Shown here: positions 10,386-55,948 of the stretch, one piece after another | Layout: every line of letters starts with the position of its first letter | How positions within the stretch are numbered: the stretch's first letter is position 1 | DNA from: Peptococcaceae bacterium 1109 | GTDB taxonomy: Bacteria > Bacillota > Limnochordia > Darwinibacteriales > Darwinibacteriaceae | Assembly: GCA_001028815.1 (NCBI GenBank) | Contig: LDJB01000001.1 | Coordinates: 1-64,000 of the forward strand | Direction: 5' to 3' | Length of the DNA stretch: 64,000 nt | The notes under the pieces: model-generated | What the model saw: the letters and a program-made list of their open reading frames with translations, nothing else | What the model was told of the DNA's origin: nothing | Database searches by the model: none | Made by a program: the position numbers and the translations under genes

Positions 10386-10399
10386 GTTTTTTCGCTTTA

Positions 10400-10424
10400 C
10401 CCCGGCTCCCTGCCGGGGTTTTTT
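10400..10424 (+). terminator. Terminator after copA
   Basis: CCCCGGC pairs with GCCGGGG around a five-base loop, followed by six T residues. Confidence 0.9.
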
Positions 10425-10472: not shown

Positions 10473-11888
10473 ATGGAATTCATCAAGAAAATTGTCCTTA
10501 ATGAGGTGATTCGCACATTGGTCCATAGTCTGAGGGACGTTGAGGCTTGTTTGCGTGTGGAACAAGAGTTCCAGCAGAAGATAACCTGGCGGATCTCGCC
10601 TCGCCCTTTCCAAATCGATAGGAATACTTACGCGGAGATTGAGAGCCTTGGCGCACTCCTCCTAGAGTTTTACAGGTGCATCCAGGAGCTCTATTTTGGT
10701 TCCGCTTCGGGGCGCCTGCCCCGCTGGATTGGAGAGTACTTGGAGCTTGGCAAGCCAGAGCAAGTTATCGAGTACGGACGCATGCGGAGGTTCCGCCGGG
10801 ATGTGCCGCTAATTATCCGCCCGGACATCCTCTTAACCGAGGACGGTTTGGCCATCACCGAGTTGGACAGCGTTCCGGGAGGGTTCGGCCTCACTGCCGA
10901 ACTGGGACGGGCGTACACTTTGTTGGGCTACGACGTGATCGGGGGCCCAGATGGAATTGTACAGGGCTTTGCCCAAGGTATAAGGGGCATGGTAGAGGAA
11001 GAGCCGGTGGCCGCGATAGTGGTGTCGGAGGAATCTAGCGATTACCGGGAAGAGATGGAGTGGCTGGCTAAGGCCCTCAGGGAACAGGGCTTGATGTGTT
11101 TCGCAGTCGCCCCGCAGGAACTGGTGTTTCAGGAGGACGGCCTCTACATAAGGGCCGCTGGAGAGATAATGCGGATTACGGTCCTGTATCGGTTTTTTGA
11201 ACTCTTTGACCTCAAGAATATCCCTAAGATTGACCTCATCATGTATGCTGTACGGAAGCGTCTGGTGCGGGTGACCCCGCCGCTGAAGAGCTACTTGGAG
11301 GAGAAACTCAATTTCGCCCTCTTCCACCACCCGTCCCTCGCTGAGTGGTGGGAAGAGCGCCTCGGGGAAGGCTTTGCCAAGCTCAGGGCAGTGATTCCCC
11401 AAACGTGGGTAGTGGATAACCGGCCTCTGCCGCCCCACGCTGTGATCCCCGGCCTAGAGGTGAATGGGAGGCCCGTGACGGACTTTTCCCAGGTAGCTCA
11501 GGCGACCCAGTCGGGGCGGGAGTTTGTACTGAAGGTTTCTGGCTTTTCCGCACTGGCCTGGGGAAGCCGGGGAGTTGCGGTGGGCCAGGACCTGTCCCAA
11601 GCAGACTGGAATAGGCGCGTGGCAGAAGCATTGGAGAGTTTCCCCACCAATCCCTACATTCTGCAGGAATTCCGCAAGGCTCGCCAAGTGGAGACTGCGT
11701 ACTACGACTCTGGGAACGGCACGGTAAGAGAGATGCGGGGAAGAGTGCGTCTGTGTCCCTATTTCTTCGTGCATGGCCCGGGGGTCAGTTTAGGTGGGAT
11801 CTTGGCCACGATCTGCCCTGCAGATAAAAAGCTAATCCACGGTATGGTGGATGCTGTGATGGTACCAACTATGGTGGATGGGAGCTGA
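10473..11888 (+). CDS. ATP-grasp-like protein of unknown substrate
   Basis: A 471-residue soluble protein. I see features of ATP-grasp ligases: an ITELDSVPGGFG segment near residue 128, then a C-terminal part with EFVLKVSGF about residue 350 (lysine for ATP phosphate), GSRGVAVG as a glycine-rich loop, and YILQEF as a metal/ATP-binding strand. The layout recalls the glutathionylspermidine-synthase-like or circularly permuted ATP-grasp groups, but I cannot place it in a characterised family. If it is an ATP-grasp enzyme it would join a carboxylate to an amine or thiol through an acyl phosphate. It is followed four bases later by lysine 2,3-aminomutase and then an ABC exporter, so beta-lysine is a natural candidate substrate; this is inference. 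GAGGAGG lies 15 bases before ATG 10473, rather far. A terminator isolates the operon from copA. Confidence 0.6.
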   Translation: MEFIKKIVLNEVIRTLVHSLRDVEACLRVEQEFQQKITWRISPRPFQIDRNTYAEIESLGALLLEFYRCIQELYFGSASGRLPRWIGEYLELGKPEQVIEYGRMRRFRRDVPLIIRPDILLTEDGLAITELDSVPGGFGLTAELGRAYTLLGYDVIGGPDGIVQGFAQGIRGMVEEEPVAAIVVSEESSDYREEMEWLAKALREQGLMCFAVAPQELVFQEDGLYIRAAGEIMRITVLYRFFELFDLKNIPKIDLIMYAVRKRLVRVTPPLKSYLEEKLNFALFHHPSLAEWWEERLGEGFAKLRAVIPQTWVVDNRPLPPHAVIPGLEVNGRPVTDFSQVAQATQSGREFVLKVSGFSALAWGSRGVAVGQDLSQADWNRRVAEALESFPTNPYILQEFRKARQVETAYYDSGNGTVREMRGRVRLCPYFFVHGPGVSLGGILATICPADKKLIHGMVDAVMVPTMVDGS

Positions 11889-11892
11889 TTGC

Positions 11893-12987
11893 ATGTCAGC
11901 GGTGTGTTGTCTGTGCAAGCCGGAACGGTGGCACGATTGGCGCTGGCAGTTCCGCCACCGGCTGCGGACCATAGAGCAGCTTGGGCAAGTCATCAAGCTC
12001 ACTCCGGAAGAAGAAGCAGCTCTATCCCAGCCGAACTTCGTGGTGGGTATCACGCCCTACTTCGCTTCCCTGATGGACCCTGAGGATCCCACCTGCCCAA
12101 TCAGGCGGCAGGCTATCCCCTTGGCTGCCGAGGGGGCTTCGGGGCCAGGGACTGCCGCGGATCCCCTTAACGAGGAAGGCTTGTCACCGGTTTCCCGGAT
12201 CATTCACCGCTACCCGGACCGGGTTGTGCTCTTGGGCACAGAAACGTGCCATACCTACTGCCGGCACTGCACCCGCCGGCGGCGAGTGGGCATGGTGGAG
12301 AAGGGCCTCACCCGAGACGAACTGGAAGGCGCGGTGGAGTATATTGCAGGGCGCCCCGAGATCCGGGATGTGCTTATCAGTGGGGGCGACCCCCTGACCT
12401 TGGCAAACGGGCAGTTGGACCGCATATTGGCGAAGATACGGGCAGTGCCCCATGTGGAGATCATCCGCATTGGGACGCGGGCGCCTGTAACCAATCCCTA
12501 CCGAATCACTCCTGACTTGGTTGCGGTGTTGAAGAAGTACCATCCCTTGTGGATAAACGTGCAGTTTAACCATCCCAAGGAGATTACGGAAGCCTCTGCC
12601 CGGGCATGCGCGGCCTTGGTAGATGCTGGGATCCCCGTGGGGAACCAGACGGTGCTGCTTAAGGGGATCAATGACAGCGTGGACGTCCAGAAAAGGCTGG
12701 TTCAGGAGTTGCTCAAGCTCCGTATCCGCCCTTATTATCTTTACCAATGCGATTTGGCTAAGGGGATCGATCATTTCCGAACCCCCGTGGCAAGGGGTAT
12801 TGAGATCATTGAAGGCCTGCGGGGGCATACTTCAGGGCTCGCCGTACCCACCTTTGTGATCGACGCACCAGGTGGAGGAGGGAAGATTCCCGTGAGCCCC
12901 CAGTATGTGATCTCCCAATCTCCCGAAAAGGTCGTGCTGCGTACCTACGACGGGAAGATCGTTGAATACCCCGAACCCCAGTTTTAG
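11893..12987 (+). CDS. kamA: L-lysine 2,3-aminomutase (radical SAM, PLP)
   Basis: Converts L-lysine to L-beta-lysine by a radical mechanism using a 4Fe-4S cluster, S-adenosylmethionine and PLP. The cluster ligands are Cys119, Cys123 and Cys126 (CHTYCRHC). The PLP lysine is Lys331 in PGGGGK. The two acidic residues that bind the lysine side-chain amine in characterised enzymes are both present, Asp287 in YQCD and Asp324 in VIDAP. Glutamate 2,3-aminomutases have replaced these residues, so lysine is the likely substrate. The length of 364 is somewhat shorter than the 416-residue Clostridium enzyme, mainly at the N-terminus. ATG 11893 with GGGAG upstream is preferred; ATG 11878 overlaps the previous gene. 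No N-acetyltransferase (ablB) follows, unlike the usual osmolyte operon. Confidence 0.92.
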   Translation: MSAVCCLCKPERWHDWRWQFRHRLRTIEQLGQVIKLTPEEEAALSQPNFVVGITPYFASLMDPEDPTCPIRRQAIPLAAEGASGPGTAADPLNEEGLSPVSRIIHRYPDRVVLLGTETCHTYCRHCTRRRRVGMVEKGLTRDELEGAVEYIAGRPEIRDVLISGGDPLTLANGQLDRILAKIRAVPHVEIIRIGTRAPVTNPYRITPDLVAVLKKYHPLWINVQFNHPKEITEASARACAALVDAGIPVGNQTVLLKGINDSVDVQKRLVQELLKLRIRPYYLYQCDLAKGIDHFRTPVARGIEIIEGLRGHTSGLAVPTFVIDAPGGGGKIPVSPQYVISQSPEKVVLRTYDGKIVEYPEPQF

Positions 12988-13000
12988 AGGAGATACCCAT

Positions 13001-13930
13001 ATGAGAAACGGGCACGGCGAGGTTGCCGTAGAAGTTATCGATCTGAAGAAATACTATGGAGAAGTGAAGGCCGTTGACGGTGTGTCCTTTTACTGCCTCC
13101 GGGGCCAGGTGTTTACCCTCTTGGGCCCTAATGGCGCAGGCAAGACCACTATCGTGGAGATCTTGGAAGGCCTTCGGGAGGCGGACAGCGGTGAGATTAT
13201 CTTTCTAGGAAAGCCTTGCCGCACCATCGGCCGGGAAGAAAAGGAGCGCATCGGTGTTGTGCTGCAGCAGACTAATTGGCTTCCCCGGCTCAAGGTCAGG
13301 GAGATGCTGGAGATGTTCTCCGCCTTATACAGGCGATCCGTAGGAGTAGATCACCTGCTGGAAGTGTGCAGCCTCACAGATAAAGCCGGCGCTTTAGTGG
13401 ATACCTTAAGCGGAGGCCAGCGTCAGCGGCTGGCCATCGCTTTGGCTTTGGTCAACGATCCAGAAGTCATTTTCCTCGACGAGCCTACCACGGGCCTCGA
13501 TCCCCAAGCCCGCAGGAACATCTGGGATCTCATTCAAGACCTCAAGGGCCAGGGTAAGACGATTTTTCTCACCACTCACTACATGGAAGAGGCGGAGCAG
13601 CTGTCCGATTACGTGTACATCATGGATCAGGGGAGGATCATCGCCAAAGGCACGCCCCAATCCTTGATTGATGATCTTGGCCAAGATAACGTCATCGAGT
13701 TCAGCCGTGGGGAGCTAGATCCGGGGCAACTGCAGAACATCCTAAGCACCCAGGGCTTGCGAGTGGGGGAAGAGCGAATAACGGTGTACACCCAGGACCT
13801 GGCCGGGGACTTGGCCCGGATCCTGGAATGGGCGAAGGATGGGGGTAGCCGCATTGAGCATCTGGCAGTGCGCCGCTCAAATCTGGAAGACGTGTTTTTG
13901 CACCTGACGGGCAAGGGGTTGAGGGATTGA
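13001..13930 (+). CDS. ABC transporter ATPase, ABC-2 exporter type
   Basis: A 309-residue nucleotide-binding subunit. Walker A is GPNGAGKTT, the Q-loop is QQTNW, the signature is LSGGQRQR, Walker B is VIFLDEP and the switch histidine is in TTHYMEE. The C-terminal 80 residues resemble the extra domain of DrrA/CcmA-type drug and lipid exporters. It begins 13 bases after kamA with AGAGGAG ahead of ATG 13001, and its TGA overlaps the start of the next gene (TGATG), so it is translationally coupled to a membrane partner. Predicted to power export of a product of the same operon. Confidence 0.9.
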   Translation: MRNGHGEVAVEVIDLKKYYGEVKAVDGVSFYCLRGQVFTLLGPNGAGKTTIVEILEGLREADSGEIIFLGKPCRTIGREEKERIGVVLQQTNWLPRLKVREMLEMFSALYRRSVGVDHLLEVCSLTDKAGALVDTLSGGQRQRLAIALALVNDPEVIFLDEPTTGLDPQARRNIWDLIQDLKGQGKTIFLTTHYMEEAEQLSDYVYIMDQGRIIAKGTPQSLIDDLGQDNVIEFSRGELDPGQLQNILSTQGLRVGEERITVYTQDLAGDLARILEWAKDGGSRIEHLAVRRSNLEDVFLHLTGKGLRD

Positions 13931-15054
13931 TGCGGCAAGTAAGCGCGGTGTTCCGAGGTTTTCTCCTTAGCAGCCTGCGGGACAAGTACACGTTGTTCTG
14001 GGATCTGGTATTCCCCCTTATCTTGCTGGTGATTCTGGTCTCCATCTTCGGGAATCTGGGAGAAACCATTTCAGAGGCCGTTTTCGATGTGGGGCTGGTG
14101 CTGCATGCCCATGAGGGTGGGGGGATCCCCATAGGCAGCATCGTCCAAGGGGCCCTGGAGGAGATGGCAGGGGAAGATCCCACATGGCTGAGGTTGTTCA
14201 CCGGAAGTTCTTTGGGGGAAGAGCTTGACGCTTTAGGGCGGGGTGAGCGTCATGCGGTGGTGGAAGTTCAAGGGCAGGATGTGGAGGTGAACGTCCGTTC
14301 CGGGCGGATGATGTCTGAGATAGCTGGGGATGCTCTGGCGCAAGTGCTAGAGTACCTTAATTTGGAAGTGAACCGCCGCCTGGGATTAGTGAGCGGCCCT
14401 ACGGTGCGCACCATCTATCGAGAGGTAGAAGGGGTAAGCTCCGCCCCGGAGTCCTTCAATTTCGCGGCGTACATGGTTCCCGGAATTATCCTCATGGTCT
14501 TCCTCAACTCTGGGCTGGGCCCCATGGTTCAGCGGCTTGCCATCGACCGAGAGCTGGGAAGGCTGCGCCGCCTGTTTGCATCGCCACTAGGAAGGGGACA
14601 GTATTTTGCAGGAGTTCTGCTGTACATTCTTGCCCTTTCGGTAGTGCAAGTTAGCCTCATTCATGCTGCCGGATGGCTGCTGTTTGGAGTAAAGCTGCAC
14701 CTTTTAGCTTGGCCGCCGCTGTTTTTCATGATCCTCGCGTTGGTCACCCTACTTGCCCTGGGCCTTGTCATAAGTGCAGTGGCGAGAACAGCCAATGCTG
14801 CATCAGCCCTGGCTAACGGCCTGCTGTATCCCATGATGTTCTTGGGAGGACTATACTTTCCTGTGGGGCAGCTGCCTTATCCCATCAAGCTGGTGGTGGT
14901 AGTCAACCCTGTCACATACCTTGTTAACGGACTTCGCCATAGTTTAGGAGTGCTCACTTCACCCACGCCGCACTGGGCTAACGTAGCTGTACCACTAGTT
15001 TTTACCGGTCTAACGCTGCTTATCGGCCTGAAAAGGTTTGACTGGGATGTTTAA
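13930..15054 (+). CDS. ABC-2 type exporter permease subunit 1
   Basis: A 374-residue membrane protein with one N-terminal helix (residues about 18-40), an external domain of about 130 residues, and five helices in the C-terminal half, the layout of ABC2_membrane_3 permeases. The start ATG shares one base with the stop of the ATPase gene. With the next gene it probably forms a heterodimeric channel. Substrate unknown. Confidence 0.88.
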   Translation: MRQVSAVFRGFLLSSLRDKYTLFWDLVFPLILLVILVSIFGNLGETISEAVFDVGLVLHAHEGGGIPIGSIVQGALEEMAGEDPTWLRLFTGSSLGEELDALGRGERHAVVEVQGQDVEVNVRSGRMMSEIAGDALAQVLEYLNLEVNRRLGLVSGPTVRTIYREVEGVSSAPESFNFAAYMVPGIILMVFLNSGLGPMVQRLAIDRELGRLRRLFASPLGRGQYFAGVLLYILALSVVQVSLIHAAGWLLFGVKLHLLAWPPLFFMILALVTLLALGLVISAVARTANAASALANGLLYPMMFLGGLYFPVGQLPYPIKLVVVVNPVTYLVNGLRHSLGVLTSPTPHWANVAVPLVFTGLTLLIGLKRFDWDV

Positions 15055-15068
15055 GAGGTGCCCATAGT

Positions 15069-16142
15069 ATGAAGAGTTACTTCGCAATCACAAAAGCCCT
15101 CATGTCTAGCTTGTTTAGGGATCGGGAAGCGCTGTTTTTCTCAGCTGTGCTCCCTCTCATATTCCTGCTCATTTTCGCCCCCACTTTTGCCGGGTCTGGT
15201 GAAGGCAGCAAGGTTGAGGTGGCAGTCTATACCACAGCCAATGGGGAAGACCGTGAGCTCTTGGACGGAGTAATCCGCGAGATCGGTGGGTTAGAAACCA
15301 CCTACTACCACAGCCTAGATGAGGTCTTTGACCTCGTTGCTCACCAGCAGGCTGATTTCGGCCTGGGGTGGGATGGCTCTAACCTAGAGGTATTGATGAA
15401 TCCCGCCCGCCTGCAGGACAATGCGGTTTACCGCCAGCTTAGCGAAGGAATCCGAGCTCAGCTCGATAGGGAGCGCCTGGGTCTGAAGGATTTACTGCAC
15501 GTCAAGGTAAGGGGGGCCGCCCCGCAGGGGCAGACTGGTGGAGAAATGGGATATCTCTTCCCTGGGGTAATTGCGTTGGGAGTGATGTCATCAGGCCTCT
15601 TCCTTATCTCTGCATCGTTTATGTATATGAAGGAGCGCTTTGTTCTCAAGCGCCTCGCTGCCACACCCCTTGCCAAGCTCAGCTTCTTGGCAGGCCTGAT
15701 TACCACCCGCATGGCCTTGAGCGTGATTAGCGCATGCTTAGTGCTCCTTGTGGGCTGGCTGGTTTTAGGGGTGCGCCTGCCCATCAACTGGCCACTGTTT
15801 GTCCTGTATCTGATTGCTGCCACCCTGATCATGAGCGGCACAGGGGCTGTTATTTCCCTGATCGCGAAAAGTGCCCGCAGTGCCTCGGAGATTGCAGGGC
15901 TGTCGATAACCATTATGACCTTTGTTTCGGGGGTATACTTCCCCCTGGAGTTCTTGCCAGAGTCCTTTCGCTCTGCTAGCCTGATTCTGCCGGCCACATA
16001 TGTAGCCCGGGGATTTCGGTTTGTGATGGGGGTGGAGGCCATGCCATGGCTGAGCTTCATCTGGGAAACACTTGTTCTGTGCGCCTTCTCCCTGGCAGCG
16101 ATCTGGATTGTGGCAGTGAAGGGCAGTTGGGATGCCCATTAG
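15069..16142 (+). CDS. ABC-2 type exporter permease subunit 2
   Basis: A 357-residue paralogue of the upstream permease with the same topology: N-terminal helix, external domain about residues 40-150, five C-terminal helices with the conserved FVSGVYFPLEFLP segment before the last helix. AAGAGGTG precedes ATG 15069. It is the last gene of the operon starting at 10473; I see no strong terminator directly after it. Confidence 0.88.
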   Translation: MKSYFAITKALMSSLFRDREALFFSAVLPLIFLLIFAPTFAGSGEGSKVEVAVYTTANGEDRELLDGVIREIGGLETTYYHSLDEVFDLVAHQQADFGLGWDGSNLEVLMNPARLQDNAVYRQLSEGIRAQLDRERLGLKDLLHVKVRGAAPQGQTGGEMGYLFPGVIALGVMSSGLFLISASFMYMKERFVLKRLAATPLAKLSFLAGLITTRMALSVISACLVLLVGWLVLGVRLPINWPLFVLYLIAATLIMSGTGAVISLIAKSARSASEIAGLSITIMTFVSGVYFPLEFLPESFRSASLILPATYVARGFRFVMGVEAMPWLSFIWETLVLCAFSLAAIWIVAVKGSWDAH

Positions 16143-16223: not shown

Positions 16224-16289
16224 ATGGCTGCTCTTTCCAAGACTTTTTACGGATTTGTAGAAGGTCTTGTTTTTTGTGGACAAGTATAA
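16224..16289 (+). CDS. Possible 21-aa leader peptide overlapping a terminator
   Basis: ATG 16224 opens a 21-codon frame (MAALSKTFYGF start) that runs through the whole terminator hairpin and stops at TAA 16287-16289. AAGGAAG lies 13 bases upstream, a weak ribosome site. Translation would disrupt the hairpin, which is why it is worth listing, but it may be chance. Confidence 0.25.
   Translation: MAALSKTFYGFVEGLVFCGQV
16239..16275 (+). terminator. Terminator or attenuator between the exporter operon and codY
   Basis: AAGACTTTTTAC (16239-16250) pairs along all 12 positions with GTAGAAGGTCTT (16257-16268), allowing three G-U pairs, with loop GGATTT and then GTTTTTTG. It lies between the promoter at 16168 and the separate codY promoter, so it could end a short RNA, act as an attenuator, or terminate the upstream operon. 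Confidence 0.6.
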
Positions 16290-16425: not shown

Positions 16426-16454
16426 TTGACACTCGACAAATTTCGAAATATAAT
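16426..16454 (+). promoter_or_regulatory. Consensus sigma-A promoter of codY
   Basis: TTGACA at 16426-16431 and TATAAT at 16449-16454 are both perfect, with the optimal 17-base spacing. The expected transcript starts about 40 bases before ATG 16501. Confidence 0.9.
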
Positions 16455-16500
16455 CAACATTAGAGGCAACTCGACATATCTGAAAGGTGGAAACAAGACG

Positions 16501-17247
16501 ATGCTGATCAATAAGATGCAGTCCCTCACACACCTCCTCCAGCGAGATGGAGCCCGGGTGAATTTTGATGATTTTTGCCAGGCAATTCGCGCAGGTGTTA
16601 CCGGTGCGAATATATACTTGATTACCCGCAAAGGGAAGCTCCTTGGCTATGCGTTGGAGGCAGGGTTTGAGAACACCCCCTTCGATCAGGAATGGCTCGA
16701 CAGCCGGGAAGCCCCAAACGAGCTCCAATCGACGGTCAACCGGGTTGCAGCCCAAAGCGTGATTCCCTGGACCAACGGCGAGCTCGTGATGGTCACCCCT
16801 GTGGTGGGAGGCGATGAGCGAGTTGGTTCCCTGCTGTTTGTTAGGGAAGAGGGAGAGTTCAACGAGGATGACGAGATCATCGGTGAGTTTGCTGCCACTA
16901 CCGCAGGCATGATCATTGCCCGGGTCATTGACGAGCGGCAGGAAGATGAAGTGGCAGAGGTGCGGGCAGCCCGCAACGCCATTAACAGCTTGTCATATTC
17001 GGAAGTCATGGCCATGCAGCGCATTTTTGAAGAGCTGGATGGGGACGAAGGCCTGCTGGTAGCCAGCAGGATTGCAGATGAAGCAGGCATTACCCGCTCC
17101 GTGATCGTCAACGCCCTGCGCAAACTGGCTTCTGCCAACGTGATTGAATCCCGCTCTCTGGGGATGAAAGGTACCTACCTGCGCATCCTCAATAAGGAGA
17201 TTCGGAAAGAATTCGACCGGCACTGGTATCCCCAGACTAGGTCGTAA
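16501..17247 (+). CDS. codY: CodY, GTP- and branched-chain-amino-acid-sensing repressor
   Basis: Global regulator that senses GTP and isoleucine/valine/leucine and represses nutrient-limitation genes. The 248 residues have an N-terminal GAF-like effector domain (about 1-155) and a C-terminal winged helix (about 185-240) with ASRIADEAGITRSVIVNAL and ESRSLGMKGTYL, nearly the family consensus. ATG 16501 has AAAGGTGG ten bases upstream. The family in other Firmicutes often sits with clpYQ/xerC, which are absent here. It has its own consensus promoter and a CodY-like box, suggesting autoregulation. Confidence 0.96.
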   Translation: MLINKMQSLTHLLQRDGARVNFDDFCQAIRAGVTGANIYLITRKGKLLGYALEAGFENTPFDQEWLDSREAPNELQSTVNRVAAQSVIPWTNGELVMVTPVVGGDERVGSLLFVREEGEFNEDDEIIGEFAATTAGMIIARVIDERQEDEVAEVRAARNAINSLSYSEVMAMQRIFEELDGDEGLLVASRIADEAGITRSVIVNALRKLASANVIESRSLGMKGTYLRILNKEIRKEFDRHWYPQTRS

Positions 17248-17250
17248 AGG

Positions 17251-17273
17251 AAGGCCCTCAGTGAGGGCCTTTA
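17251..17273 (+). terminator. Terminator after codY, shared with the convergent kinase gene
   Basis: AAGGCCCTC and GAGGGCCTT form a 9-bp stem with a three-base loop followed by TATTTG. The stop codon of the minus-strand kinase gene lies inside the hairpin. Confidence 0.75.
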
Positions 17274-18493
17274 TTTGTGCTATTAGATTGCTCTGTGGGA
17301 AAAGTGATGGTTACTGTGGTGCCCAGCTCGCTGGAGTCGATGGCCGCTTGAGCATCGTACTTTTCCAGAATCCGAAAGCATACGGGAAGCCCCAGCCCTG
17401 TGCCTCGCTCTTTTGTTGTGAAAAAGGGAGTGCCGACCTTAGCCATGATCTCCGGCGGTATGCCGTGCCCCGTATCCTTGATGCGGAGGACGGCATGGGG
17501 ATAGCTGTGCTCAGTGGTGATGGTCAAGACTCCGTTCGCGGGCATGGCATCGAAGGCGTTCTGCGCGAGATTAAGGATCACTTGGCGGGCTTCTGCAGGC
17601 TTACAGGGAACGTCAGGGACAGGGGACAGCTCGATGCGTACCCATTGATGGCGCTTAGCCGCAGCCGCTTCCAGCAGGGGGCGGACAGCATCGATGACCG
17701 AGTTTAAGTTGCAGCCTGTGCTGCTGGTGGGGGCAAACGTTTTCGCTAAACACAGGAACTGGCGGGCAAGCATATCTACCCGGTCCACCTCATCGATGAC
17801 CTTGTCGATAATATCACCGTAGAGGTTGAACTCTGGTTTGCTGTGGAGCAGTTCCATCAGGGCTCGGATTGCCGTAATAGGATTTCGGATTTCGTGTACC
17901 ACTTCCGCCGTAATGGTGCGCAGCACATTGTAGCGGTTAAGGGTGGACAAGGCACCGTTGTGGGTTGATGTTCCTCGGAAGAATGTGAACGTGTGGCTGT
18001 TGGAAAGAGCGATTATTTCAGCTAGGCTGCATGCTTGGAGAGGGTAGGGGCAGAGGACAATGGCAGGTTGATCTTCGAGGAGCTGATCGAGCACAGCTTC
18101 CTGGGCGAGGATAGTATCCCTATCCCAGGGAAAGACGTCCGCAGTGCAGTGGACCACCCTGAGTCCCGTATAGCCTTCCTTGAGCAGGATGGTTACCTTG
18201 TGCCGCCATTTCTCCAGCAAGGCCTCAGGTTGGTGGCCTCCTGTCAGGCACCATTCGCTATAGGGCGCGATCTCCACTTGCTGCCGTGGGGCCTTGTCAA
18301 GAGCACGGGAATCAGTATTTGTGATCCAGAGGCAGTACTCATTGGCTGCAGCTCCAGCACTGAGAAAGGCCATAACCATCTGCATATGGTCTTGCTCACT
18401 CTCGTAGAAGCCGCACATATGAGTGCCCCAAGGAACGCGATCGAGAAACTCAATGCCTGTGTGCCGCAGTTCGCTGCGCGCCTGAGGTTGCAT
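17258..18493 (-). CDS. Orphan sensor histidine kinase with MEDS domain
   Basis: A 411-residue soluble kinase. Residues about 10-175 match the MEDS sensory domain (GTHMCGFYES near the N-terminus), a RecA/KaiC-like input module first seen in methanogen and methylotroph regulators. The HisKA helix carries the phospho-acceptor His200 in VVHEIRNP. The HATPase domain follows (NLAQNAFDAM N-box, DTGHGIPPE G1, GTGLGLPV G2). There is no membrane segment, so it senses an internal signal. No response regulator gene is adjacent, as is usual for sporulation kinases that feed Spo0F/Spo0A. Two perfect Spo0A boxes lie just upstream, so it may be a Spo0A-controlled phosphorelay kinase. GGGGAGA lies six bases before ATG (plus 18491-18493). 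Confidence 0.88.
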   Translation of the reverse strand: MQPQARSELRHTGIEFLDRVPWGTHMCGFYESEQDHMQMVMAFLSAGAAANEYCLWITNTDSRALDKAPRQQVEIAPYSEWCLTGGHQPEALLEKWRHKVTILLKEGYTGLRVVHCTADVFPWDRDTILAQEAVLDQLLEDQPAIVLCPYPLQACSLAEIIALSNSHTFTFFRGTSTHNGALSTLNRYNVLRTITAEVVHEIRNPITAIRALMELLHSKPEFNLYGDIIDKVIDEVDRVDMLARQFLCLAKTFAPTSSTGCNLNSVIDAVRPLLEAAAAKRHQWVRIELSPVPDVPCKPAEARQVILNLAQNAFDAMPANGVLTITTEHSYPHAVLRIKDTGHGIPPEIMAKVGTPFFTTKERGTGLGLPVCFRILEKYDAQAAIDSSELGTTVTITFPTEQSNSTNKGPH

Positions 18494-45117: not shown

Positions 45118-46878
45118 ATGATGAGCAAACATTTTGCGCAGACGGCAGCGGCCCTCATATGCTTGCTGCTGTTGGTGGGGGTAATTACCCCGACAGCACT
45201 GGGGCAGGGTGCCCCGAGCAATATTGTCCGGGAAATCGTTATTCAAGGGAATACCCACCTGGATGATGATGTGATTCGCGCCGCAATTGTGAAAACCCAA
45301 GTTGGGCAGCCCGCCGTCGATGAACTCATCCTGGATGATCTCCGTTCCATTTATGACACGGGCTATTTTCAGGATGCATCCGCGACTAAAGAACAGTTAG
45401 CAGATGGAATAGCCGTTGTGTTTTATGTGGTTGAAAACCCCATTGTGACGGATATTGTTTTCCGCAATGCAGAAAGCTACGCCATGGGCGAGTTTGAACG
45501 GCAGATGCGGGTCCAGAGGGGTAAAGTGTTAAATGTCATCGACTTGGTGGAAGACTTAAGAGGTCTCCATTCCTGGTTCGCCGAGAAGTACGGGCGCTTG
45601 ATACATGTCACCGATCTGGAAGCAGATACTCAGGGCATAGTTGTGGTGGAGCTCACAGAAACGGTCCTCAAAGGCGTCGAAATCGTTGGTAACGAAAAGA
45701 CGAAGGACTTCGTTATTGAGCGGGAACTCACATTCGAGCCTGGAGATGTGGTGGATATCAAAGAGATCGACCGGAGCCTCCGCCGCGTTCTTATGCTAGG
45801 GTTCTTTGACGAAATCACTCGGGAGTTCTCTCAAGAGGAAGACCCCAGTGAAACAGTACTCACCATCAACCTCAAAGAGCGGAAGAGTGGTTCTGCAACC
45901 TTTGGCGTGGCTTACGGGAAGCCTGATGGCCTAGTGGGATTTGTAGAAGCTGCAGATGACAACTTCCTTGGCCGGGGCCAGCGGATTAATGCCTCCCTGC
46001 AGCTGGGCAAGGGCATGCAGAGCTATGAGTTCGGTTTCTATGAGCCCTACATTGAAAAGGGTGGCACGTCCCTTGGTTTCAACCTCTACCGGAGGAACTC
46101 GAATATCGAGAAGAAGCTAGCGACTACGGAAAACCCAGATCTAGAGCCATTGACGGGGAGAAAGAGCACTACCGGCGGGGACATCACCCTGGGCCGCCCC
46201 TTCACTGAGTTTACCCGGGGCAGGTTGACCCTCACAGCGGAGAACAACCGCTATGTGCAGAACCTTGCCGACGATGAAACGGAACCGCATGAGGATTGGT
46301 TCAAGGACTACGCGACCCGCATCATCGGGTTTGGCGTGAATACAGATACTACGGACCATCCGTACTATCCAACAGAAGGTTACCGTAACGATGTGTACTT
46401 GGAGATGGGCCGGAAAATGCTGGGAGACGATTCCCAGTTCGCCAAACTGCGCTTGTCCCACAGCCGTTACTTCGAGCTGTTTGACGGCGGCTATGTTTTC
46501 GCAGTCCGTGGCTTAGGCGGGCGGACCCTCAGCGGCACGTTGGAGGAAAACGAAGAGTTCAAGATCGGCGGTGCCAACACCCTGCGGGGTTACAGCTACG
46601 GCGCGAATGATTCCCTCAAGGGAGACAATATGCTGGTGGTCAACGCTGAGTTCCGTTTCCCCATCGTAGAGAGAGTTACTGGCGTGGTCTTTACTGACTG
46701 GGGCCGGGCATGGGACAACGACGAGAAAATCACTCTCAGTGAGTTGAACAACAGCTTCGGCCTTGGTGTCAGGCTTGATACACCCCTTGGCCTCCTTCGC
46801 CTTGACTACGGCTTTGGTAAGGATGAAGAGAATAAGCGCACTGGCCAGTTCTACTTCGGCGTTGGCCAGACATTCTAA
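45118..46878 (+). CDS. bamA: BamA/Omp85 outer-membrane protein assembly factor with three POTRA domains
   Basis: Folds and inserts beta-barrel proteins into the outer membrane. The 586 residues consist of a signal peptide (cleavage near ALGQ), three POTRA domains (about 37-110, 112-185, 187-258) and an Omp85 barrel (about 262-586) with the loop-6 motif TLRGY and the terminal QTF ending in phenylalanine. Proteobacterial BamA has five POTRA domains. GGAGG precedes ATG 45118. No BamB-E lipoproteins are present. The three Skp-like genes follow, as in bamA-skp operons. Confidence 0.95.
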   Translation: MMSKHFAQTAAALICLLLLVGVITPTALGQGAPSNIVREIVIQGNTHLDDDVIRAAIVKTQVGQPAVDELILDDLRSIYDTGYFQDASATKEQLADGIAVVFYVVENPIVTDIVFRNAESYAMGEFERQMRVQRGKVLNVIDLVEDLRGLHSWFAEKYGRLIHVTDLEADTQGIVVVELTETVLKGVEIVGNEKTKDFVIERELTFEPGDVVDIKEIDRSLRRVLMLGFFDEITREFSQEEDPSETVLTINLKERKSGSATFGVAYGKPDGLVGFVEAADDNFLGRGQRINASLQLGKGMQSYEFGFYEPYIEKGGTSLGFNLYRRNSNIEKKLATTENPDLEPLTGRKSTTGGDITLGRPFTEFTRGRLTLTAENNRYVQNLADDETEPHEDWFKDYATRIIGFGVNTDTTDHPYYPTEGYRNDVYLEMGRKMLGDDSQFAKLRLSHSRYFELFDGGYVFAVRGLGGRTLSGTLEENEEFKIGGANTLRGYSYGANDSLKGDNMLVVNAEFRFPIVERVTGVVFTDWGRAWDNDEKITLSELNNSFGLGVRLDTPLGLLRLDYGFGKDEENKRTGQFYFGVGQTF

Positions 46879-49234: not shown

Positions 49235-50320
49235 ATGGGCTTGCCGCGCAAAGTAGATTGGTATATCGTGCGTGAATTCATGGGCCCATTTGCTTTTTGC
49301 GTAATTGGCTTCACGATTATCCTCATCAGTGGGCTCTTGTTTGAGCTCACTGATTTGATCTTTGTGAAAAGCGTCCCCGTGGAGACGGTTGGGCGGATGC
49401 TCCTGTATAAGCTCCCGGACATGGTGGTCCTGACTCTCCCCATCGCGGTGTTGTTTGCCACCTTAGTGTCCTTGGGGCGGTTGGTGCAGGACAGCGAGAT
49501 GAAGGTCCTTCGAGTGAGCGGCCTTTCCTTTCCCCGCCTGATCTTGCCTGTGGTTATCTTGGGCTTTGTGGTGAGCGGCGTAACGTACTGGGCATCAGAG
49601 GAAGTGGTGCCAGAAGCGAACCACAAGTACGAGAACACCTTGCGGAGGATAATTTTCTCGGAAGGGATTCCTCTCATCGAAGAAAATGTATTCTTTTATG
49701 GCGGTGAAAACCGCTACTTCTATATCAGCGAAGTGGATAACGAACGCCGCGAACTGTACAACATCCTCGTATATGAGCTGGGGAACGGGCCTTTTCCCCG
49801 GTTGATCACGGCAAAACGGGGAAGTTTCGTGGACAACATCTGGGTGCTGAATGATGGCATCGTACAGGAGCTAGATGACGAAGGTTTTGTCAGCCACGAG
49901 ACCCGCTTTGGCCAGATGGAGATTGTCACCGATCAGAAGGCAGATGTGTTTTTAGGGAACCAGCGCACCACCACCGAGATGAACCGCAAAGAGCTCAAGC
50001 AGCACATCGAACGGTTTCAGCGTAGTGGGCTGAAGGTGCTGTCCTTTGTAGTGGATTATCACATGAAGCTGGCCCTTCCCATGTCATCGTTTATTTTTGC
50101 CCTCTTTGCGGCACCTCTGACCCTGTACAGCCGGGCGGGACGCTCCTTTGGTGTGGCTGTGAGCCTAGTGGTGATCCTGCTGTACTATGTGGGGATGTCT
50201 GTGGCCCGCTCCTTGGGGGTAAATGGGGTTTTGCCGCCCATTGTTGCCGCGTGGTTGATTAACGGACTGTTTGCCCTGGTAGGGGTGGTCCTGATTTTCC
50301 TCGCGGACCGGCCAAAGTAA
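49235..50320 (+). CDS. LptF/LptG-family permease of the lipopolysaccharide exporter
   Basis: Inner-membrane permease that extracts lipopolysaccharide-type lipid with LptB. The 361 residues have three N-terminal helices, a periplasmic beta-jellyroll (about 110-270) and three C-terminal helices (YjgP/YjgQ family; DWYIVREFMGPF, EMKVLRVSG). Gram-negative bacteria usually have both LptF and LptG; only this one is present in the window. AGAGGAGGAG precedes ATG 49235. The stop overlaps the next frame (TAATG). Confidence 0.9.
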   Translation: MGLPRKVDWYIVREFMGPFAFCVIGFTIILISGLLFELTDLIFVKSVPVETVGRMLLYKLPDMVVLTLPIAVLFATLVSLGRLVQDSEMKVLRVSGLSFPRLILPVVILGFVVSGVTYWASEEVVPEANHKYENTLRRIIFSEGIPLIEENVFFYGGENRYFYISEVDNERRELYNILVYELGNGPFPRLITAKRGSFVDNIWVLNDGIVQELDDEGFVSHETRFGQMEIVTDQKADVFLGNQRTTTEMNRKELKQHIERFQRSGLKVLSFVVDYHMKLALPMSSFIFALFAAPLTLYSRAGRSFGVAVSLVVILLYYVGMSVARSLGVNGVLPPIVAAWLINGLFALVGVVLIFLADRPK

Positions 50321-50343
50321 TGTTGAAGAAAGGACCAACACTG

Positions 50344-52506
50344 ATGCGCCGAACAGGCTTGATCTTGGCAATGGTTCTGATCCTTGTATGTGGATCGGCC
50401 TTAAACGGAAGTGCGGCAGAAGAAGTAAGTGTCCGCATTTCTGCGGCGCGCTCTGGTTGGTATGATGCAGTGCAGAAGCTCTTCGTTGGGGAAGGGGACG
50501 TCCAGATAGCAACAGAGGATACCCTTATAACCGGCGACTATGTAGAGTGGAGCATCGACACGGGTGAACTAGTGGTCTCAGGCAACGTTGTCCTCAAGCA
50601 GAGTGAAAACGAACTTGCCGGGGAGTACCTTTTCTACAGCGTAAACCGGGGAGAAGGAGAGTTCCTTGATGTCTCGGCCCTCGTTGAGGCGCCCAAGGCG
50701 GAGGGCCCCATCTTTCTGCGCTCTGAGACAGTGGTGATCTCCAGGGACGGGACTTACCGTCTACTCAATGGCCGTATCACAACCTGTGACTTAGAGAAGC
50801 CCCACTACTATCTGGCGGTGAAGGAGTTAGAACTCTTCCCCAATGACAAGCTGATCGTCAGGAATGTGACATACTATGAGGGTTCCATCCCCCTGTTTTA
50901 CTGGCCTTACCTTATTCTCCCCGTCGGTGAGAACATCGCCGATATGCTCTCGCTGCTGCCGGTTGTAGGTTACAGCAACAACGAGGGGTTTTATGTGAAA
51001 ACCAACTTCGACTACTACCTCAATGAGAACCACTACGGAGTGGTCCACCTCGACCTTTACTCCAAGCTTGGGGTGGGGTATGGTTTTACCCACAATTATT
51101 CCCACAGCTGGCTGGGGAAAGGCAAGCTCAGGGCATTCCATATCCCCTTTGGGGATCAGGGTAAGTTTTCCGCGAACTTCAACCATGAGTGGAGCCAGGG
51201 CCCCTGGCGCTTCGTCACCACCAATGCCCTAGACACTGCCGGGAACGACCGCAAGGCTGACCTCCGCAGCCGCCTCACCTTGACTACCGCCAGTGTGTCA
51301 GCGAGCCTAAACGGGACTTATCAAGAGAATCTGGGGTCCAGTACGGGCAAGGCATGGGAGTACGGGGCTTCCTGGCGCCAGCAGCTAGCGGAGGGATTAC
51401 GTTTGACCTTGAACGGCAGCGTAACCGGGAAAGAGGGCAGCAAATCGCTGCGGATGTTGGATTACTTGGCGGAAACCACGTACACCAAGGGTTCTCATAC
51501 CCTTGCTTTGGCCGTGGAGCAAAAGTACAACCCAGACCTGCTGGAGGAGGGGGCGCAGCCCACCTGGTCCAGCCTAAATCGCATGCCCGAACTGTCGTGG
51601 CGCCTGACCAATCCTAGGCTATCACGGAGAGTGCTCCCCATTCAGCTGGAACTCAAGGGTGGGCACTACCATGAGTTCCCTTCTGATGTGGCTGATTGGC
51701 GCCTAGGGGGGACTGCGGCTTTGCTTACTCGCACTTGGCGGCCTACTCAGACTACGACCATAAGCTACGGGGGTGAAGCGGCCAGTGCTTGGTATGGGGA
51801 AGGTGGCAACCAGAGCGTACTCACAGGCAGGCTCAACCTGACCCAGCAACTTGGCAGCCGCTTGCGCCTAACTGCTCGGTACAACGAACAGTTGGTTTTC
51901 GGAGAGAGCCCGTTTCGTTTCGACAAGAAAAGCCCAGTCCGCTCTGTGAACCTCAGCCTGAGCCATACGAGTTCTGCCCTATCCTTAAGTGCCAGTACCA
52001 GCTACAACTTCTTGACAGAGAAGTACGGCACTCTAGCTCTGCAGGGCACGTGGCGCCCAACCGCTAACCTCAAGCTCAGCCTTTCAGCAGGATACGACCT
52101 GAACACCGACAAATGGGGCCGCATCGTCCCCAAGTTCGAGTATTCCGCCAAAGATGGGCAGGAGCGCACCAAGACGTTCCGGCTGGGCGGGAAGTATGAT
52201 GTGGGGGCCGGCCAGTGGGAAGAAGTTGAGGTTCAAGTCAAGTCTCCCGTTGGTGAAACATGGACCATCGGGTATGATGCCGTTTACGAGCCGAAGCAGG
52301 AAGATTTCCGCTCTGGGCAGATCAGAATCGACAAGGAGTTCCACTGCCGCTCCATCACCCTAGCCTACGACCATGTGAAGGGCAATGTGGCCTTCAGCGT
52401 GACCATAAATGCCTTCCCCACCCTGCCGTTTGGCTGGGACTCGGACAAAGGGGTCAGCTTGTTTGACGTGGACGATGTCTTGGATCTGATCGGGGTTGAG
52501 AAGTGA
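50344..52506 (+). CDS. lptD: LptD/OstA-like outer-membrane lipopolysaccharide translocon
   Basis: Inserts lipopolysaccharide into the outer leaflet. The 720 residues have a signal peptide, an N-terminal OstA jellyroll (about 30-150; GEGDVQIATEDTLITGD, LVVSGNVVL) and a large barrel. The GRITTCDLEKPHYYL and PLFYWPYLILPVG segments are typical LptD signatures. The mature chain has only two cysteines, one in TTCD and one in FHCR, so the two-disulfide control of E. coli LptD cannot apply as such. No lptE is seen. ATG 50344 follows AAAGGA; ATG 50320 overlaps the permease stop and is an alternative. Confidence 0.9.
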   Translation: MRRTGLILAMVLILVCGSALNGSAAEEVSVRISAARSGWYDAVQKLFVGEGDVQIATEDTLITGDYVEWSIDTGELVVSGNVVLKQSENELAGEYLFYSVNRGEGEFLDVSALVEAPKAEGPIFLRSETVVISRDGTYRLLNGRITTCDLEKPHYYLAVKELELFPNDKLIVRNVTYYEGSIPLFYWPYLILPVGENIADMLSLLPVVGYSNNEGFYVKTNFDYYLNENHYGVVHLDLYSKLGVGYGFTHNYSHSWLGKGKLRAFHIPFGDQGKFSANFNHEWSQGPWRFVTTNALDTAGNDRKADLRSRLTLTTASVSASLNGTYQENLGSSTGKAWEYGASWRQQLAEGLRLTLNGSVTGKEGSKSLRMLDYLAETTYTKGSHTLALAVEQKYNPDLLEEGAQPTWSSLNRMPELSWRLTNPRLSRRVLPIQLELKGGHYHEFPSDVADWRLGGTAALLTRTWRPTQTTTISYGGEAASAWYGEGGNQSVLTGRLNLTQQLGSRLRLTARYNEQLVFGESPFRFDKKSPVRSVNLSLSHTSSALSLSASTSYNFLTEKYGTLALQGTWRPTANLKLSLSAGYDLNTDKWGRIVPKFEYSAKDGQERTKTFRLGGKYDVGAGQWEEVEVQVKSPVGETWTIGYDAVYEPKQEDFRSGQIRIDKEFHCRSITLAYDHVKGNVAFSVTINAFPTLPFGWDSDKGVSLFDVDDVLDLIGVEK

Positions 52507-53777: not shown

Positions 53778-53803
53778 ATGGGCACTGGGTGAGGAGGATG
53801 GTT

Positions 53804-55948
53804 ATGCTCTCTTTTTTTCGCGATGGATTTTATAAAGACTTTATAGTACTTGTGCTGGTAACCATCTTACTGGGCACACTATTCTCCGCGGGTATTGCCT
53901 GGGCATTGGATGCCTACTTTGGCGATACCCTTACTGATATGATCGGGGAATATGGCCAGTACGACATTATCCTCCACATTCAAGAAGAATCGAAAGAAGC
54001 GGCCTTTCGGGAGCTGGAACGCTTGGGGGATCAGCAGTTCCCTGGCGCCCGCCTAAGTGAGACTATCACTATTGCAGGCCAAGCCAACTTCTTCTTCGGC
54101 CTGCCAGAAGAGTTCCGTACTAAAGAGGTTATGGCCAATCTTCCCTCATATTTCGCCGCGGTCCCAGGGCTGAACAGCCACACCATTATTTCCGATCCGA
54201 GCATCTTAATTCGGGGCGTACACGGCAGTGTTAGCGATGAGCTCGCGCAGAAGATTGAGGAACTCCCAGGGGTGCGCTTTACATTTACGGATATGGGTAA
54301 CATGATTGTCCTCCTGGAAGACCCAATCCTTGCCAAGGCTTTGGAGGAGGATATCAAGGAGATTCTGGGAGAGTACCAACTTGTGGAGCTCCGCTTCCCC
54401 ATGGGCTTTGAAGTGGATACGGCGCAAGTGGGTGAAGAGGCTATCCGCCTCTTAGAACAGGAACTGCCTGGGAGGAAGTACCGGAACGTCACTGCGGCGC
54501 AGTATGGCGAGGATCTGAATGCTTTCCTGAAAACCCTTGTGGAAATGCGGGATTTCTTGTTGAGCTATGCATCGAAAGTGCGCATTACCGCTGACCCAGA
54601 AGTCTACCTCATCGTGGGAGAGCAAATTGCTATCCAAGGCCAAGGCGCGGAGTTGGCGGAAGGGGGCATGCTCACCGAGGGGAACGTGGTGATCGAGATC
54701 ACGGCGGTCAACGGAGACCAGGCGGAAGGGATGATTATCCGGGGTGAGATTGCTCCAGCCATGGAGAGCCTTCATCAAGGGGGCTACCGGGTGTTTTCCG
54801 ACGGGCAAGTGGCCCGGCCCATCGGCCAGGTCGAAGTGGAAAACGAGCGCTACCGCCTGGCCTATGCCATTGATGAGAGCCTGCGTCTTCTGGAGGAGCT
54901 AGAGGTATTATCTGTACAGGCCACCGATGCGGTGCAAAATGCAGATGCGGTCCTGAACACTTTCCAAGAAGCCCTGCTCCAGCTGGAAGTTTTGCAGGCG
55001 CAGATGCGCCAGCTGAATCAAGGGATTTCGGGGAAGGATTCCACTTCCTCCAGCGAGCAGCTGCTGGTGAGCCTACTCATAAATGGCCTATTCCAAAGTC
55101 TGGCGCAAGCAGCGGTTCAAGCAGGGGAAGACAACCTTGATTCCCTCGAGAACCTGGACATTGCTGCCATGCGGGCTAGCCTGGACCAAATCAGCGATCA
55201 GGTCGCCAACGTGCAAGACATTGATGTACAGGCGATTATCAATCAGATTGAGTATGTCCGGGAAACCCTTCCTATGCTGGGGGATGAGGATATCGGCCGC
55301 TCCATCCGCCTGATCAACACCTACATCGCCGGCCAGGTGATCCCGGGAGAAAGAATCCAGATCATGGTGGAAAATGGGCAGGTGGATGAGGGGCAAGTGG
55401 AAACGGTGCTCCGCCGCAGCTTAGACAACCCTTATCTCAATATTTATTCAACGTCAGTAGGAGTGATCAACCCTGATGCTCGGTCGGAGATCTTCCGCCT
55501 CCTAACCGAAGTACGGGCCATTATTGCGGGGCTGTTGGCCATCGTGTTTACAGGAGCCATTCTCATGCTAGACCATGCTGTGGTGTTCAGCACCCTGAAG
55601 TACCTGCGCAGGGCTGGGCGAGCCAAGAGGCTTCGCTGGCAGGTGCTTAACCCAGTACTCCTCTTTGGAGGGCTCTTGGGGGCGGTGATTCTCACATCTG
55701 TTTACAGGCTGAGCGGAGCTGAGATCCCCTATCTCTCCTTAGGGTCAATCGTGCTCATTGGCGGGCTGGTAGGATGGGTGGTAGCCAGGTTTGCGGAGCG
55801 CTTCAGCCCAGTGAACATCAAGGAAGTCACCGCCGGCCAGGCTTTAGGCCTATCCAATGTACAGATCATGCGGGAAATCGTCATCCCCAGCAGCCGGCCG
55901 GGTTTGATGAACCTGCTCAACCGCTGGAAGCAACAGTTTAGGGGGTGA
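53804..55948 (+). CDS. Large ABC transporter permease with extended periplasmic region, function unknown
   Basis: The 714 residues have one N-terminal helix (about 12-34), a periplasmic region of about 530 residues that includes a coiled coil (about 365-500), and three or four C-terminal helices. The last 50 residues carry a cytoplasmic loop similar to the EAA coupling motif of ABC permeases (ALGLSNVQIMREIVIPSSRPG). The overall plan, one helix, large outer domain, C-terminal helices, recalls FtsX/MacB/LolCE-like transporters, but the EAA-like end does not fit them. GAGGAGG lies seven bases before ATG 53804. It is four bases from an ATPase gene and sits between lptA and fabZ, so a role in lipid or lipoprotein traffic to the outer membrane is the natural inference. 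Confidence 0.7.
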   Translation: MLSFFRDGFYKDFIVLVLVTILLGTLFSAGIAWALDAYFGDTLTDMIGEYGQYDIILHIQEESKEAAFRELERLGDQQFPGARLSETITIAGQANFFFGLPEEFRTKEVMANLPSYFAAVPGLNSHTIISDPSILIRGVHGSVSDELAQKIEELPGVRFTFTDMGNMIVLLEDPILAKALEEDIKEILGEYQLVELRFPMGFEVDTAQVGEEAIRLLEQELPGRKYRNVTAAQYGEDLNAFLKTLVEMRDFLLSYASKVRITADPEVYLIVGEQIAIQGQGAELAEGGMLTEGNVVIEITAVNGDQAEGMIIRGEIAPAMESLHQGGYRVFSDGQVARPIGQVEVENERYRLAYAIDESLRLLEELEVLSVQATDAVQNADAVLNTFQEALLQLEVLQAQMRQLNQGISGKDSTSSSEQLLVSLLINGLFQSLAQAAVQAGEDNLDSLENLDIAAMRASLDQISDQVANVQDIDVQAIINQIEYVRETLPMLGDEDIGRSIRLINTYIAGQVIPGERIQIMVENGQVDEGQVETVLRRSLDNPYLNIYSTSVGVINPDARSEIFRLLTEVRAIIAGLLAIVFTGAILMLDHAVVFSTLKYLRRAGRAKRLRWQVLNPVLLFGGLLGAVILTSVYRLSGAEIPYLSLGSIVLIGGLVGWVVARFAERFSPVNIKEVTAGQALGLSNVQIMREIVIPSSRPGLMNLLNRWKQQFRG

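Follow-up and report, generated by a model that had tools for sequence, protein, structure and literature searches.

Two described systems start, like the locus studied here, from an enzyme of the KamA family. In the modification of translation elongation factor P (EF-P), the KamA-family enzyme EpmB is paired with the ligase EpmA, which is similar to lysyl-tRNA synthetase (LysRS) and is not an ATP-grasp enzyme. In the pathway to N-ε-acetyl-β-lysine, the lysine 2,3-aminomutase AblA is followed by the acetyltransferase AblB; the available text of one report describes ablA as an osmolyte gene that is riboswitch-controlled in Dehalobacter (PMC9337991). A third point of comparison is provided by ligases with a permuted ATP-grasp fold. 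In the available text of a second report, YgiC and YjfC are stand-alone enzymes that join an acid to a cationic amine and, like glutathionylspermidine synthetase (Gss), use spermidine, and homoglutathione synthetase joins γ-glutamylcysteine to the β-amino acid β-alanine (PMC12568646). We analyzed a 64,000-nucleotide stretch of DNA from Peptococcaceae bacterium 1109 (contig LDJB01000001.1, positions 1 to 64,000 of the forward strand; hereafter the window, its genome being G000), in which five genes at positions 10473–16142 bring together a candidate ligase of this fold (gene 1), a KamA-type aminomutase (gene 2, kamA) and an exporter (genes 3–5). The conserved unit is the ligase and kamA, and what is new here is a ligase family of known fold tied to a known aminomutase. 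Taken as a whole, the locus probably encodes a two-enzyme module for β-lysine conjugation accompanied by a lineage-specific exporter.

Gene 1 (10473–11888, + strand) encodes a protein of 471 residues with no family match in Pfam, NCBIfam, PADLOC or PHROGs. It does not match PF03738 (GSP_synth) at a maximum E-value of 1 or 10, settings at which the HMMER filters drop most matches above 0.1, and the best hit of its family profile against the sequences of the PDB, with an E-value of 1.3, is meaningless. Membership of PF03738 was rejected because the curated Pfam score is not reached. A defence or phage origin was likewise set aside, as PADLOC has no match for gene 2 either.

An AlphaFold2 model of gene 1 was built from an alignment (A1) of 54 sequences, the window protein and 53 of its 61 full-length relatives, and has a predicted local distance difference test score (pLDDT) of 93.9 and a predicted TM-score (pTM) of 0.91. 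The best Foldseek matches are glutathione synthetases (E 1.4e-15), with the eukaryotic-type glutathione and homoglutathione synthetases at the top yet only 12–15% identical to gene 1; a putative glutathionylspermidine synthase was also retrieved. Using VIA-align, the model superimposes on YjfC with a Z score of 28.0 (353 residues, 3.5 Å), on YgiC with 27.3, on homoglutathione synthetase with 26.9 and on Cp1B of the E-64 pathway with 25.2 (396 residues). The scores fall to 14.0 for 3k1t and to 8.9 or lower for other ATP-grasp enzymes, including the unpermuted LysX, RimK and Ddl. The model supports a permuted ATP-grasp fold of the kind found in glutathione synthetase, Gss and YgiC/YjfC, and an assignment to the acid-amine ligase type. 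The resemblance to YgiC and YjfC extends over nearly the whole chain, but identity in the structural alignments is 10–14%, gene 1 has no PF03738 match, and E. coli ygiC is not linked to kamA as gene 1 is. Cp1B resembles gene 1 in having the same ATP-grasp fold and no detectable sequence identity to characterised enzymes; it differs in being fungal and in joining epoxysuccinate to amino acids, and no aminomutase is mentioned in the available text (PMC12568646).

The motif R-x-D...E-x-N/D takes the form R116/D118/E130/D132 in gene 1, and these four residues are invariant across the 54 sequences of A1. Its spacing is that of R316/D318/E330/N332 in E. coli Gss, with D132 in place of the asparagine; these Gss residues we take to bind metal and substrate. 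YgiC has the same motif with one more residue between D and E and, again, N where gene 1 has D. When the gene 1 profile was compared by hhalign with that of four PF03738-type proteins, the same motif was aligned, though weakly (probability 30%, E 5.5e-4).

Gene 2 (11878–12987, + strand; 369 residues) scores 342.5 bits against the KamA family model TIGR00238, above the cut-off of 199.2, and matches the solved lysine 2,3-aminomutase 2a5h with an E-value of 1e-143. The match to the LAM_C domain covers only the first 58 of its 127 positions. Residues D292, D329 and K336 align with D293, D330 and K337 of 2a5h, and the CxxxCxxC motif is kept; we take the aspartate pair to form the lysine site, the lysine to hold pyridoxal 5'-phosphate (PLP) and the cysteines to bind the cluster. 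G000 has no second KamA above the family cut-off. Judged by these residues, gene 2 is a KamA-type enzyme with a lysine-type active site and probably makes β-lysine. The ATP-grasp fold and the aminomutase with lysine-specific aspartates, both named in the original prediction from the bare sequence, are thus recovered in the model and in the alignment with 2a5h.

We propose that KamA would isomerise L-lysine to β-lysine by radical S-adenosylmethionine (SAM) and PLP chemistry, as its family and active-site residues suggest. The gene 1 product would use ATP and Mg to convert a carboxylic acid into an acyl phosphate, which an amine of β-lysine would then attack to give an amide; the choice of nucleophile follows the analogy with YgiC/YjfC, Gss and homoglutathione synthetase. 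The ligase step would take the place that acetylation by AblB has in the pathway described above. The exporter of the window's genus would release the product, or a compound derived from it, from the cell, and in other lineages the product would stay inside or exit by other means. The chances are about even that ligase and KamA make a conserved, previously undescribed β-lysine amide, a further bacterial use of β-lysine beside N-acetyl-β-lysine and EF-P modification, which is shared by members of at least five phyla and is exported in one Bacillota genus. If true, this would give a reaction class and a substrate to an enzyme family that has no Pfam or NCBIfam model, and would hint at an undescribed metabolite across a number of widespread groups of bacteria, most of them uncultured. 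The claim is cheap to check with two soluble enzymes, lysine and ATP. Among the matches listed in our literature search, which left most subscription papers outside, we found no description of such a ligase-aminomutase pair or of a system with the composition of the locus, in line with what had been claimed for it. One report on β-phenylalanine degradation mentions an aminomutase and ATP-grasp in its available text (PMC6150868).

To define the conserved unit, ligase homologues were collected with flanking DNA of at most 10 kb per side, often less as many contigs are short. The 73 loci were reduced to 67 by dropping 6 repeats on the same contig; the window is not counted among them, and four loci in which a contig end cuts the ligase (L066, L067, L070, L072) were retained. 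Of 100 genomes from the window's species and related ones, 27 have a homologue, and 47 ligase loci come from genomes labelled as Bacillota, Nitrospirota, Nitrospinota/Nitrospinaceae, Chloroflexota, Armatimonadota, Tanganyikabacteria and one further bacterium. A kamA on the same strand lies within 2.5 kb of the ligase in 56 of the 67 loci, downstream in 54 and upstream in 2, with a median gap of 161.5 bases between match ends. The pair spans five phyla (Bacillota, Nitrospirota, Nitrospinota, Chloroflexota and Armatimonadota), and its carriers include Nitrospinaceae and Manganitrophus-type lineages. No third gene conserved in all phyla was present among the gene clusters listed.

The active site was read in 51 of the 56 partner KamAs (L047, L053, L073, L089 and L097 were left out). 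Both aspartates and the PLP lysine are kept in 50; the remaining one, L050, ends before the second aspartate. The partner in L086 keeps the active-site residues though its N-terminal part is missing. For eight of nine partners scanned, the lysine 2,3-aminomutase model TIGR03820 is the best model, and two exceed its cut-off, L030 (547.8) and L034 (585.5).

In a tree of 107 KamA sequences, left from 118 after near-copies were removed, partner and other KamAs are clustered, with 4 changes compared with about 35 in shuffles. The non-partners are a part of those found (L134–L163 and 40 regions), and one row labelled as other, L137, is the partner KamA of G042. The partners fall in more than one lineage, and long branches leave the placement of the Armatimonadota sequences unsure. 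The ligase tree tracks the phyla closely, its 4 changes for five groups being the minimum possible.

Several observations weigh against the proposed module. The sequence link of gene 1 to the glutathionylspermidine synthetases is weak. Two serines of Gss, S335 and S337, which presumably bind glutathione, correspond to P135 and G137 in gene 1, so its acid partner probably differs from that of Gss. Gene 2 is nearest to the TIGR03820 model but at 518.3 bits is about 7 below its cut-off of 525.4, and seven of the nine scanned partners also fall below it, three short ones of the Armatimonadota type by about 260 bits; β-lysine is therefore not certain to be the product everywhere. Ten of the 67 loci have no nearby kamA despite sequence being present, and one more ends too early. 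L058, L062, L063, L085 and others genuinely lack kamA beside the ligase; in L090, which also has no kamA, only 210 bases are available on the flank that holds the gene in other members of its genus. At the genome level, KamA is above cut-off in 24 of 27 ligase-bearing and 46 of 73 other genomes, a modest association (Fisher p 0.014) among genomes that are not independent. Three ligase-bearing genomes have no KamA above cut-off: in G041 and G049 the contig ends next to the ligase with pieces of kamA, whereas G045 lacks even these. KamA is unlinked to the ligase in G083 and G088. One observation counts in favor of the module instead: where the ligase has no adjacent kamA in family f5 (G025, G027, G029), the genomes carry a kamA-ablB pair elsewhere.

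A distant ligase homologue (25% identity) was observed on a Streptomyces plasmid (L204, 5712–12271), between a gene of the arginine-deiminase family and a valine--tRNA ligase gene. Two genes before it is a radical SAM gene whose family matches are of the B12 type, not KamA, and for this reason the homologue gives no support to the link with KamA. The locus may be a natural-product cluster that includes a valyl-tRNA synthetase for resistance.

Could the pair instead act on EF-P? Gene 1 would then replace EpmA and KamA would act as EpmB, so that β-lysine is attached to the lysine at the EF-P tip. EpmA is above the genX cut-off in none of 37 named ligase-bearing genomes, a search that covered neither G000 nor its relatives, and this vacancy is consistent with such a replacement; the best sub-threshold matches are mostly in frames of about 500 residues, as expected of lysyl-tRNA synthetases. 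The EF-P of G000 also carries the tip lysine (KPGKG), but the same tip is equally present in relatives without the ligase. EF-P was searched in 29 of the 37 named genomes, and the tip was counted in the 27 ligase-bearing genomes with a match: lysine occupies it in 18; in 7, every one of them from the Chloroflexota, the residue is Arg, and in 2 Nitrospinaceae it is Asn next to a Lys. The EpmB model, with a cut-off of 369.3 bits, scores gene 2 at 223.4 and the window KamA and nine partners together at 218–257. Because 9 of 27 carriers have no lysine at the tip, EF-P is unlikely as a general target; with the EpmA and EpmB scores also under their cut-offs, it was rejected in that role, and we regard this explanation of the pair as most improbable. 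The unusual tips (L223–L227, L230, L232, L234, L235) read K-x-GRGG in the seven Chloroflexota and TPGNKR in the two Nitrospinaceae (L226, L232).

The absence of ablB, remarked on in the original prediction, extends to the whole of G000, which has no AblB match. AblB is above cut-off in 5 of the 100 relatives, 3 of them ligase-bearing (3 of 27), and in 1 of the 37 named genomes; in ligase-bearing G045 the match reaches 181 bits, below the cut-off. This rarity of AblB alongside the ligase favors the proposed module and would also fit a compatible solute, in which the ligase caps β-lysine with an acid where AblB would acetylate it, giving a neutral intracellular osmolyte. Nitrospinaceae, which are marine, are among the carriers, and 65 of the 67 loci have no exporter permease. 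The role of ablA as an osmolyte gene, according to the text cited above (PMC9337991), points the same way. However, neither the window nor the 17 of 67 loci scanned contain a Na+ or cyclic di-AMP riboswitch, one carrier is from groundwater (L054), and in the window's genus the product is seemingly exported. We consider an osmolyte rather unlikely. No cis-regulatory RNA exceeded the Rfam thresholds in the window or in ten of the loci, and in seven further loci the sole one was a flavin mononucleotide (FMN) riboswitch, located in L078 at a distance of about 3.6 kb from the ligase.

Adjacent genes raise the question of a thiol. A glutaredoxin-like open reading frame (ORF) of 78–104 residues is the next gene after the ligase in 15 of the 67 loci, in Nitrospirota and Nitrospinota (e.g. 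L035, 11372–11608), and follows kamA in one Armatimonadota locus (L056, 4157–4453); the Pfam family Glutaredoxin was confirmed for L073 and L056. By analogy with the nearest folds, which are the glutathione, homoglutathione and glutathionylspermidine synthetases, γ-glutamylcysteine or a similar peptide might be joined to β-lysine to form a low-molecular-weight thiol or conjugate. The glutamate-cysteine ligase GCS2, which would supply γ-glutamylcysteine, was found in none of the 27 ligase-bearing relatives and in 3 of the 37 named genomes, one match being strong and two weak, in a search that did not include PF04262 and other GshA families. The route through GCS2 is not supported by these counts. 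The Gss serines are also not kept in gene 1, and a thiol product is very unlikely.

The exporter in the window consists of an ATPase and two ABC-2 permeases. Gene 3 (13001–13930, + strand) is an ATP-binding cassette (ABC) ATPase (ABC_tran, 107.7 bits) that is DrrA-like, scoring 262.7 bits against the DrrA-type model TIGR01188, under its cut-off of 312.45. Permease 1 (gene 4, 13930–15054, + strand) and permease 2 (gene 5, 15069–16142, + strand) both match ABC2_membrane and ABC2_membrane_3 above cut-off. By Pfam, the ABC-2 exporter is complete, as had been suggested for this locus. Its proposed role as an integral part is not supported. Permease homologues occur in only two of the 67 other loci, one of them damaged, and hence the exporter is not part of the core. 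The only complete exporter outside the window is in L028, from the one other genome of the genus. In L029 (2746–4186; G005, another genus of the same family) the ATPase ORF is truncated to 173 residues and permease 2 follows it with no permease 1; the ligase and kamA are intact, and as the contig is 4.2 kb long an assembly fault is possible. In the remaining 65 loci there is no permease homologue within the flanking DNA available for each, and ABC ATPases with 26–36% identity occur near some of them (e.g. L033, L045, L053) with permeases absent. Of the five genes that the original prediction took as one system, it is the ligase and kamA that recur across phyla, and the exporter looks like an addition of the window's genus, perhaps its family, rather than of the system at large.

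The exporter of the window's genus would also fit a different use of β-lysine, in which its own carboxylate is activated, the ligase passes the β-lysyl group to an amino group on a lipid, sugar or peptidoglycan of the envelope, and the modified molecule is then exported. The gene lgt lies just behind the pair, or behind a lone ligase, in 12 of 67 loci, in the taxonomic order to which the window belongs (Pfam LGT confirmed for L079), which would fit this reading, but it does not appear in the neighbour listing for other groups. The carriers include Chloroflexota, a group that generally lacks an outer membrane. In relatives with known reactions, as far as the available text describes them, it is the amine or amino acid that acts as nucleophile (PMC12568646). 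Such an envelope modification is distinctly unlikely, and we favor ligation of an acid to an amine of β-lysine.

Within the window, the five genes are intact, uninterrupted and all on the + strand, so that the joined, co-directional arrangement described earlier holds. Genes 1 and 2 overlap by 11 bases and the two permease genes are separated by 14. The frame of gene 3 is open from TTG 12962, but AGGAG precedes ATG 13001, which is more likely to be the start of the ATPase; permease 1 starts at TTG 13927 or ATG 13930. Compared with L028, the ratio of nonsynonymous to synonymous substitutions (dN/dS) is 0.05 for the ligase, over the 460 codons that come after an early in-frame stop in L028, and 0.05–0.08 for the other four genes, with dS saturated throughout.

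A consensus scan identified a hairpin resembling an intrinsic terminator, with an 8-pair stem followed by a T run, at 10399–10419 (+ strand), between a CopA-type copper ATPase gene and gene 1. A second, at 16238–16269 (+ strand), has 14 pairs followed by a T run and is the probable 3' end of the unit. With these hairpins at both ends, a single transcription unit at 10473–16142 is plausible. The scan returned 16 terminator-like sites compared with 9.2 +/- 2.9 in shuffled sequence, so a single hairpin is only suggestive. No sigma-70-like site was detected on the + strand in the gap before gene 1; the nearest, at 10273, is within copA.

Beyond the exporter is a gene for a CodY-like regulator (16426–17247), which follows the exporter in L028 as well. 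Its listed start, TTG 16426, coincides with the leading hexamer of a sequence that matches the sigma-70-type promoter perfectly (TTGACA-17-TATAAT), and the true start is therefore probably downstream, perhaps at ATG 16501. It is followed on the - strand by a MEDS-domain sensor histidine kinase (17258–18493). Two long ORFs, at 50320–52506 (728 residues) and 53789–55948 (719 residues), have no Pfam match at E 1e-5. The window also encodes an Omp85/POTRA outer-membrane protein and an SLH-domain protein (45118–46878 and 60705–63161), by which the host would appear to be one of the Bacillota that have an outer membrane.

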